In this document: piece by piece, positions 30,332-54,499 of the stretch
Position numbering within the stretch: the stretch's first letter is position 1
How the letters are laid out: the number at the start of each line of letters is the position of its first letter
Assembly: GCF_900119705.1 (NCBI RefSeq)
Contig: NZ_LT632322.1
Location: forward strand, 1-64,000
DNA length: 64,000 nucleotides
Direction of reading: 5' to 3'
DNA from: Murdochiella vaginalis
Lineage (GTDB): Bacteria; Bacillota; Clostridia; Tissierellales; Peptoniphilaceae
Notes under the pieces: generated by a model
The model's input: the letters and a program-made list of their open reading frames with translations, nothing else
Database searches by the model: none
Told to the model about the DNA's origin: nothing
Program-made: the position numbers and the translations under genes

Positions 30332-30599
30332 AAGTGCGCACACCCGGCTTTGTGACAGGCAACGGATCCGGCACGACGGTCTTCCGCTCAACCATGGCTG
30401 CCTCGCAACACATGAAGAACAACACTTAATGCTGCTTCCTTCCGGACCTGACATGGTTCATGCGCCTTCATTGTGCAAGACCATGGCGTCAGCACGGTCA
30501 ACCGACACCTGCGATTCGCCTTCTGCCCCGGGGCCGGGAATTCTACCCTGCTAAAGCGGATTGCAGGTACAGGGCACCGCTAACTCCCCATATAGTGCA
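30332..30599 (-). ncRNA. ffs: Signal recognition particle RNA, large bacterial type
   Basis: The minus strand carries the universal SRP domain IV core GTCAGGTCCGGAAGGAAGCA (near 30433-30452). It also has the 5' Alu-domain landmarks GGTGCCCTGTACC and CAATCCGCTTTAGCAGGG (30540-30580) known from Bacillus and Clostridium 6S-size SRP RNAs. The roughly 268-nt length fits the large form with an Alu domain. The 5' end is placed just after the tRNA-Ser gene and the 3' end at the terminator, so both ends are approximate. It is likely co-transcribed with tRNA-Ser. The RNA scaffolds Ffh for co-translational membrane targeting. Confidence 0.93.
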
Positions 30600-30600
30600 A

Positions 30601-30687
30601 CGGAGAGCGAGGGATTCGAACCCTCGATACGGGAATCCGTATACATGATTTCCAATCATGCTCCTTCGGCCACTCGGACAGCTCTCC
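30601..30687 (-). tRNA. tRNA-Ser (anticodon GGA)
   Basis: On the minus strand an 87-nt cloverleaf begins GGAGAGC and ends in the complementary GCTCTCC plus G. It has a long variable arm typical of class II tRNAs, the anticodon stem-loop CATGATTGGAAATCATG with GGA anticodon, and the T-loop GGTTCGAATCC. No CCA is encoded. It reads UCC/UCU serine codons. Confidence 0.97.
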
Positions 30688-30710
30688 ACGCGCAAACGCG
30701 TTACCATAGA

Positions 30711-30738: not shown

Positions 30739-30790
30739 ATGCAAAGCACCATCCGAACCGCCCGTGTAACGGGTTGATGCCTGGTGGACT

Positions 30791-30892
30791 GAGGCTATAA
30801 AGGCGGGCGGCGGCCCGCTGGGCTGAAGCTATAAAGAGGTCAGCGGCCCGCTGGGCCGAAGCTATAAAGAGGTCGGCGGCCCGCTGGGCCGC
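30791..30892. repeat. Three tandem GC-rich 33-34 bp repeats
   Basis: Three near-identical units begin GA(A/G)GCTATAAAG and end in the imperfect palindrome GGCCCGCTGGGCC. The last unit merges into the stem GGCGGCCC-GCT-GGGCCGCC followed by TTCCTTCTTTT (30874-30905), which on the plus strand looks like a terminator. A second stem GCCGGCC-GCA-GGCCGGC follows at 30911-30927. No gene is present between the tRNA and the 53-bp array. Confidence 0.85.
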
Positions 30893-30951
30893 CTTCCTTC
30901 TTTTCCAATCGCCGGCCGCAGGCCGGCTCCTTATGAGTGCCCGTGGGAAGA

Positions 30952-31361
30952 TTACGGGGCATTTTGCTGTTTCGCCATTTTGGCCCGTAACTTCCCTCAC
31001 GGTTTTACGGGTCATTTCCCCATTTCGCGATTTTGGTCCGTAATTGTGGCGACGGTTTTACGGGTCATTTCGCTGCTTCGCCATTTTGGCCCGTAATTAC
31101 GGCGAGCCCTTTACGGGTCATTTCGCTGTTTCACGATTTTGACCCGTAACTTTCCTCACGGTTTTACGGGCCACTTCTTCACTTCGCCATTTTGACCCGT
31201 AATTGTGGTGATGGCTTTACGGGTCATTTCGCTGTTTCACGATTTTGACCCGTAACTTTCCTCACGGTTTTACGGGTCATTTCCCCATTTCACCATTTCG
31301 ACCCGTAACTTCCCCCACAGGCTTACGGGTCACTTCCACACTTTGCCATTTTGACCCGTAA
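30952..31361. repeat. Array 1: eight 53-bp units with a TTACGGGTCA...TGACCCGTAA inverted repeat
   Basis: Eight units start exactly 53 bp apart at 30952, 31005, 31058, 31111, 31164, 31217, 31270 and 31323. Each has a left arm near TTACGGGTCA, a 19-nt pyrimidine-rich middle and a right arm near TGACCCGTAA (39 nt), followed by a 14-nt linker of two alternating types (CTTTCCTCACGGTT or TTGTGGCGACGGTT). The arms are more conserved than the middles, and arm changes are mostly not compensated. It is not a CRISPR, because the linkers are also repeats. A partial ninth start may exist at 31376. A sister array lies at 53940. Confidence 0.95.
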
Positions 31362-53939: not shown

Positions 53940-54350
53940 TTACGGGGCATTTCCGCATTTCGCGTTTTTGATCCGTAATCGCACCGACCGCTTTACGGGC
54001 CTTTTCCTCATTTCACGTTTTTGACCCGTAATCGCACCGACCGTTTTACGGGTCATTTCCCCATTCCGCGCTTTTGGCCCGTAATTTCACCGACCGCTTT
54101 ACGGGTCCTTTCCCCATTTCGCGATTTTGACCCGTAATTCCACCACCGGCTTTACGGGTCGTTTCTCCGTTTTTCGTCTTTGACCCGTAATTCCACCACC
54201 GGCTTTACGGGTCGTTTCTCCATTTCGCGTTTTTGACCCGTAATTCCACCACCCGCTTTACGGGTCGTTTCTCCATTTCGCGTTTTTGACCCGTAATTTT
54301 GCCACCCACTTTACGGGTCATTTCTCTACTTTCGCGTTTTTGACCCGTAA
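53940..54350. repeat. Array 2: eight 53-bp units with a TTACGGGTCA...TGACCCGTAA inverted repeat
   Basis: Eight units start 53 bp apart at 53940, 53993, 54046, 54099, 54152, 54205, 54258 and 54311. Each has arms near TTACGGG(T)CA and TGACCCGTAA and a 14-nt linker (TCGCACCGACCGCT or TTCCACCACCGGCT types). As in array 1, the first unit starts TTACGGGGCA. The last unit is one base longer. The middles differ from array 1, so the arrays diverged as units rather than by recent copying. It has the same orientation as array 1. Confidence 0.95.
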
Positions 54351-54405: not shown

Positions 54406-54499
54406 CCACTTCTATCTATCTGCGCCGTCAAAGTGGCGCTACTTGTTTTGAACCGCCGGTTGCAGGCCGGCTCTTTCTTGGCACCGTTAGGCGTCCATG

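Follow-up and report, generated by a model that had tools for sequence, protein, structure and literature searches.

What bacterial intergenic palindromes do is still under debate. Architectural or boundary roles have been proposed for BIME clusters in E. coli, and the dRS3/NIME of Neisseria are another instance of repeated inverted-repeat units lying between genes. In excerpts of PMC1525189 and PMC3733652, gyrase, IHF, and DNA polymerase I are reported to bind REP/PU elements and BIME clusters, and the excerpt of PMC3733652, in which dRS3 is also mentioned, describes REP elements as carrying a GTAG or CGTC tetranucleotide at one end. Several IS elements are reported to target REPs, namely IS1397, ISKpn1, and ISPsy8 of the IS3 family and IS621 of the IS110 family (excerpt of PMC1525189). 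At the level of titles and the first part of abstracts, we recognised neither arrays like those described below nor any repeats of Murdochiella in the literature.

The window analysed here is the first 64 kb of the single-contig genome (1,671,491 bases; G000) of Murdochiella vaginalis, and Murdochiella is a member of the Peptoniphilaceae. The locus under study, array 1, has a tRNA-Ser and the large SRP RNA (30336-30688, minus strand) on one side and a 279-aa minus-strand ORF, with no Pfam or NCBIfam match at E 0.001, on the other. The features needed to follow the argument are these:

30766..30898, no strand given: 33-bp GC-rich hairpin repeat, 3-4 copies, between tRNA-Ser and array 1
30911..30929, plus strand: GC-rich hairpin GCCGGCCGCAGGCCGGCTC, directly before array 1
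30952..31361, plus strand: array 1, eight 39-nt palindromic units TTACGG-GTCA-N19-TGAC-CCGTAA with 14-nt linkers, period 53
53940..54350, plus strand: array 2, eight units with the arms of array 1, last unit 40 nt, between asnA and clpB
54455..54473, plus strand: GC-rich hairpin copy with 2 mismatches to GCCGGCCGCAGGCCGGCTC, beyond array 2
1,517,591-1,517,894, units on the other strand: array 3, six units plus one that is interrupted by the end of an IS

A sequence-only reading of this DNA had described eight units at exactly 53 bp, and both the unit starts, which follow 30952 + 53k for k = 0-7 with the final right arm ending at 31361, and Tandem Repeats Finder, which returns the identical start and period together with a second period of 159, confirm it. 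The 39-nt pattern with up to 3 mismatches matches 21 times in its own genome versus 0 times for a reversed control pattern, so array 1 is not a chance pattern. Two finer points of that reading have to be amended. The 19-nt middles, described there as simply variable, contain three invariant positions (T12, T28, and T29) and several further columns that reach 90% in 31 units from five arrays, and because of these columns the unit is directional. The linkers of array 1 do fall roughly into two types (CTTYCC.. and TTGYGG-like, plus one TTACGG..), but they do not alternate strictly; sorted by eye, they run C,T,T,C,T,C,C,T.

The 33-bp hairpin repeat beside array 1 is a separate repeat. Other GC-rich hairpins adjoin several arrays as well: GCCGGCCGCAGGCCGGCTC or a similar hairpin also precedes array 3 and the arrays in L048, L054, and L059 (type B) and L225 (type H), and the window holds 2 copies at up to 3 mismatches versus 0.03 expected. 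Four copies of a 32-bp repeat, TGTGCCTGGCATTCGTCAGCAAAGACAAAGCA, lie near the SRP RNA gene of Murdochiella massiliensis (L012:4133-4260), and an 84-bp GC-rich tandem repeat lies near a tRNA and 5S rRNA at L010:15886-16058, with a like sequence following an H array at L223:11502.

Array 3 shares the arms of arrays 1 and 2, and these three arrays contain all 21 pattern matches and all 22 matches of the 31-unit model in this genome; neither search found a single family-A copy outside them. Units scattered singly, which the earlier reading had named as the sign of an ordinary REP-like element, are thus not what the genome-wide search returned. Exact unit matches occur in records of Levyella massiliensis and Murdochiella massiliensis. 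The model matches 5 of 130 genomes of the family (22 matches in G000, 20 in G091, 25 in G092, 15 in G093, and 1 in G059, which belongs to another genus), and a looser TTACGG tandem pattern matches 6 of 249 genomes of the order, namely those five and, at one place, G171. The loose pattern also matches 115 viral-contig stretches, which we ascribe to chance on a rough estimate that assumes a collection size. Carriage by viruses or plasmids was rejected as an explanation, array 1 having no match in phages or plasmids, as was symmetry about the origin: the best dnaA match lies at 242.6-243.1 kb, a point about which the three family-A arrays (31, 54, and 1517 kb) show no symmetry.

The positions of arrays 1 and 2 are kept in G091, G092, and G093, and array 1 of the relatives adjoins the same 279-aa ORF and pepC. 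The proteins flanking the two arrays are 89.6-98.2% identical where found whole, so the shared positions reflect close kinship as well as any constraint. By tblastn, pepC gives three separate pieces in G091 and M. massiliensis and one full-length match in G092 and G093; pyrI has no match on the G092 locus. In the order G000/G091/G092/G093, the number of complete units is 8/8/2/8 for array 1 and 8/5/4+2/4 for array 2, the 4+2 units of G092 flanking an IS. Such differences between species would suit selfish or neutral satellite DNA, in which units are amplified by unequal recombination or replication slippage, have no binding partner, and merely offer an IS a harmless landing site. Blocks of units have indeed been duplicated, as seen from the 159-bp period and from units 4 and 6 of array 1, which are identical with their linkers included, and the arrays are known so far from few genera. 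Satellite DNA of this kind would not, however, be expected to hold the five outermost arm pairs constant in 31 units while the linkers drift, nor to produce the whole-turn periods, common to unrelated families, that are described below, and we consider this explanation unlikely, though not strikingly so.

Array 1 is one member of a class of palindrome arrays that lie between genes in its genus (Murdochiella/Levyella) and in some related genera. This is what the sequence-only reading missed: there are many arrays, of unrelated arm families, with periods in steps of about one helical turn and with IS elements at their dyad centres. All TTACGG types have the outer TTACGG/CCGTAA in common, this being the search criterion, and the four inner bases differ from type to type, the two arms varying in step. 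Two further types were reached by following the IS:

Type A: inner arms GTCA/TGAC, 39 nt, period 53
Type B: inner arms CGGC/GCCG or ACCG, 40 nt, period 54
TTACGG units of G059: inner arms TCTA/TAGA and GTAT/ATGC, 38-39 nt, period 62-64, once 53
Type C: CCCATGTTAT..ATAACATGGG, in G092 (Levyella), linkers 18-19 or 28-29 nt
Type D: GCCAGGG..CCCTGGC, period 52-54, reached by following the IS
Type E: CTGTA-like arms, period 51.5-53, reached by following the IS

Type A and B-like units occur within one array in L055. The type B arrays of G091 and G093 (L048 and L059) end mid-unit at the identical place, GCTTTCTGCGCTAAAGAG, a shared truncation. The exact type C pattern is found in 1 of 130 family genomes, and four type C arrays of G092 (L072, L073, L075, and L076) begin with a common spacing order of 64, 64, and 54 bp.

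Tandem Repeats Finder, run on forty 20-kb stretches of the M. vaginalis genome together with the window and two flanks (902,493 bases, 902 kb of 1.67 Mb), led to 18 palindrome arrays of six unrelated arm families, which occupy 8,121 bases or 0.9% of the surveyed sequence: six arrays of family F (TCAGGG), four of G (TGGTGG), three of A, three of H (GTAGAG), and one each of I (GTGTCC) and J (GGAGCC). This count leaves out, by judgement, L211:18341 (period 42, about 2.5 copies), L251:13555 (40), L010:15886 (42/84), and the 33-bp repeat of the window. The longest array, at L217:18415-19298 (about 808.4-809.3 kb of the genome), repeats TCAGGG..CCCTGA about 20 times with a period of 43. Palindrome arrays also occur in congeners and two other genera. 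Surveys of 200 kb each of G003 and G017, from other genera, contained no palindrome array of period 40-70. Twenty more genomes, each sampled by a single stretch of 20 kb or less (328,381 bases, including 2.4 kb of the congener G094), yielded none either, a weak negative. A CAGGG tandem pattern, whose control pattern occasionally matches too, matches 32 of 130 genomes, with 155, 243, and 222 forward matches in G000, G091, and G093 and 75, 127, and 46 in G079, G080, and G081 of genus g27; G071, G072, and G128 have 11-14 scattered matches, those of G128 being single places, and the others have 0-2 forward.

Arm sequences are unrelated between most families, and every array is built on a single pair of inverted arms specific to its family. 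A core of A-tract or CGC type common to the arrays was looked for by counting six motifs, none of which was high across every family. A preferred gene orientation was rejected as well: 42 arrays, with orthologous arrays entered more than once, lie in 21 tandem, 11 convergent, 8 divergent, and 2 unclassed gaps, versus 155/69/61 for other gaps as delimited by a crude custom ORF caller, which is no clear difference. The sole property that we found across families is geometric, namely palindromic dyads set at about whole helical turns. Dyad-to-dyad spacings between 30 and 80 bp are distributed as follows:

TTACGG types, 85 spacings: 71 at 53-54, 12 at 62-64, 2 at 39.5 bp
Type C, 34 spacings: 10 at 53-54.5, 24 at 63-64.5 bp
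Type D, 31 spacings: 52-54 bp
Type E, 4 spacings: 51.5-53 bp
Type F, 74 spacings: 41.5-44 bp
Type G, 22 spacings: 12 at 55, the rest at 52-58 bp
Type H, 19 spacings: 53-54 bp, one at 62
Type I, 5 spacings: 62.5-63.5 bp
Type J, 5 spacings: 63 bp

The proposal that 53 bp corresponds to about five turns per unit is supported by these values. In ten arm groups, 273 of 279 spacings fall at 41.5-44.5, 51.5-56.5, or 62-65 bp, or about 4, 5, and 6 turns, within windows that were drawn post hoc on data already seen and with spacings that are non-independent inside a family. The six outlying values (39.5 twice and 58 four times) are ascribed to a spurious extra match and to the 3-bp ambiguity of the TGGTGG arms, respectively. 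Spacings below 30 and above 80 bp were excluded; among them are multiples or near-multiples of the period (86, 106, 108-108.5, 125, and 126) and also 13.5, 17.5, 25, and 28. Eleven hand-picked array-type periods fit 10.62 bp per turn with a mean cosine of 0.909 (p ~5e-5 from 20,000 uniform simulations), and with one period per arm family (nine values) p is ~1e-4 against uniform periods. For comparison, PMC8501960 places the in vivo helical repeat of bacterial DNA near 11 bp per turn.

If the left-out repeats and a 48-bp case from G006 are restored, the mean cosine becomes 0.725 (14 values, p 0.0008) or 0.745 (16 values, p 0.0002), and if the nine values are joined only by the two misfits (40 and 48.5), it becomes 0.677 (p 0.006). 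The restored repeats in phase are the 33-bp repeat of the window and the 42-bp repeats of L211:18341 and L010, and those out of phase are L251:13555 (40 bp) and the CAGGG repeat of G006 (~48 bp); family G, with a period of 55 or 5.2 turns, is a misfit among the arrays themselves. Because the fit weakens yet stays when these repeats are restored, the whole-turn rule is strong yet has exceptions, and it is somewhat sensitive to which repeats are taken to be arrays. The repeat at L251:13555-13709 consists of four units of a 40-bp GC-rich palindrome close to a type G array, its period not being a whole number of turns, while L288 of G006 contains, from 1501, three CAGGGGCTATGCCCCTG-like hairpin units with GGATTGAAA tails at ~48 bp, perhaps a different repeat element. 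Three arm families each occur at two periods one turn apart: TTACGG arms at 53/54 in the genus and 62-64 in G059, CCCATG arms at 53-54 and 63-65 inside single arrays, and GCCAGGG arms at 52-54 in G091 and 43-44 in G080. Linker length is near-constant in types A/B (14 nt) and D (20-21 nt), with palindrome length varying by about 1 base; this constancy could result from copying by recombination instead of selection.

The second line of evidence comes from an IS that inserts into the arrays. Its 20-nt end pattern matches 15 places in four genomes with no more than 1 mismatch, which we read as ten insertions; five places with 3 mismatches lie outside this set. In the one copy tested, in L202, two ORFs code for an IS3-family transposase (NF033516, 283.9 bits, cut-off 160). 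Every one of the ten insertions examined sits in a palindrome array (type D in five cases, type A or B in four, and type E in one), and this is far beyond chance because arrays make up about 1% of the genome, if the other genomes resemble that of M. vaginalis. Both flanks are available for five copies. In three type D copies 3 bp of the target are duplicated, at positions 10-12, 11-13, and 10-12 of the 21-nt gap; the type E copy has such a duplication at 11-13 of a 23-nt gap, and the type A copy shows no matching target duplication when its two flanks are compared. Assuming a 3-bp duplication for the other cases, 9 of the 10 insertions have their centre no more than 1 bp from the larger gap's dyad; only the copy in L201, which lies in the other gap, is further off, by about 3. 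The insertions are independent evidence that the dyad is recognised in the cell, whether bound or extruded.

If the arms were extruded under negative supercoiling, then the cruciform, and not a sequence-specific protein, would be what matters and what the IS recognises. Arms of differing sequence would serve this purpose equally, and the IS does go to the dyad centre whatever the arms. The arms of family A are nevertheless conserved as sequence with no compensatory change, mismatched arm pairs are common, and extrusion offers no obvious cause for whole-turn spacing, so that we judge a cruciform-based explanation to be quite improbable.

A further alternative is that a transcript of the region gives rise, after processing, to hairpins or a repeat RNA. 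Single strands of four array pieces do fold well (z -2.5 to -6.7), but this says little because the arrays are palindromes, and pairing across the 14-nt linker competes in these folds. The earlier observation that arm substitutions are uncompensated was borne out, as across 31 units none of the 10 arm pairs of family A is altered on both sides, and pairing, at 96.1%, does not exceed the 96.6% of shuffles. From one to another of types A, B, and the G059 units, the two inner arms do vary in concert, but a DNA dyad would show the same. Among 80 different units, selected because their outer hexamers are exact, G.U and A.C mismatches between the arms, read on the T-rich strand, number 23 and 12 in type A, as an RNA would favour, and 3 and 16 in type B; because the bias reverses, no single RNA strand is favoured. 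Orientation to genes varies too: at arrays 1 and 2 the units point opposite to the adjacent genes, at array 3 in the same direction. A known structured RNA was rejected, Rfam giving no match at gathering score on the array and three sub-threshold matches with E 0.05-0.14. An RNA hairpin array thus appears very improbable to us, and the preference of the sequence-only reading for protein-DNA contacts over a conserved RNA hairpin stands as the better explanation of the regular array, with the binding protein itself being putative.

We put at about even the prospect that the arrays are double-stranded DNA platforms for putative dyad-binding proteins that touch along one face of the helix. Since dyads lie at about whole turns across families, a platform of symmetric complexes on one face is the simplest cause. 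Each dyad would be the site of a protein bound to double-stranded DNA as a dimer or symmetric complex, and whole-turn spacing would place neighbouring complexes on the same helix face, where they could touch and form a rod of 2 to ~20 complexes. Such rods may act as architectural or boundary elements between operons, a role that we infer by analogy with REP/BIME clusters. Arm families would grow apart as their units are duplicated and homogenised in step with the protein that reads them, the spacing being held by helix geometry, and the IS3-family element would exploit the common geometry by inserting at the dyad centre. A more specific form of the platform model is a satellite-like system of at least six unrelated arm families, presumably with a dedicated dyad binder each, whose proteins polymerise via the whole-turn spacing, with an IS3-family transposase that reads dyad geometry and not sequence; this we offer as a tentative possibility. 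If a family of binding proteins does stand behind the arrays, it would be a new set of chromosome-organising proteins. Because families unrelated in sequence seem to obey one geometric rule, the rule is directly testable by adding 5 or 10 bp between units.

How, then, do these arrays compare with described systems? Like CRISPRs, they consist of repeats at regular spacing with intervening segments, but the unit is a long-gap palindrome whose middle and, less so, whose linker are partly conserved. Cas1 (PF01867), the sole Cas gene sought, has no match in G000, G092, and G094, with a full match in G093 and two pieces in G091. The lack of a match in two array-bearing genomes (G000 and G092), together with the semi-conserved segments, leads us to reject CRISPR identity, in agreement with the earlier reading. 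The likeness to dRS3/NIME, as generally described, lies in repeated inverted-repeat units between genes. REP and BIME elements are likewise intergenic palindromes, of 20-40 nt, that are partly clustered and are IS targets, as the arrays are in all ten insertions. REPs, however, are found singly, as dimers, or in clusters of varying composition, whereas here several unrelated arm families form fixed-period arrays, and the matches of family A in its own genome are confined to three arrays, with no dispersed singles or dimers. By eye, family A unit ends lack GTAG and CGTC, while family H arms contain GTAG on both sides. An association with RAYTs was rejected, since the Y1 (REP-associated tyrosine) transposase PF01797 is found in none of the four congeners with family-A arrays; one match, in a frame with one stop, occurs in G094, a genome 87% complete with no family-A match.

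The IS described here resembles the REP-targeting elements in its IS3-family transposase and its insertion into intergenic palindromes. Its targets differ in sharing no arm sequence (TTACGG, GCCAGGG, and CTGTA), only the dyad centre of a 19-23-nt gap, and among the REP-targeting IS named in the excerpt of PMC1525189 we met no like case of arm-independent targeting. This would make it a naturally occurring IS that seems to target either the shape of the DNA or a dyad with protein bound to it. We rate the arrays as a variant of bacterial intergenic palindrome arrays, and as a new kind if dedicated binding proteins are shown.
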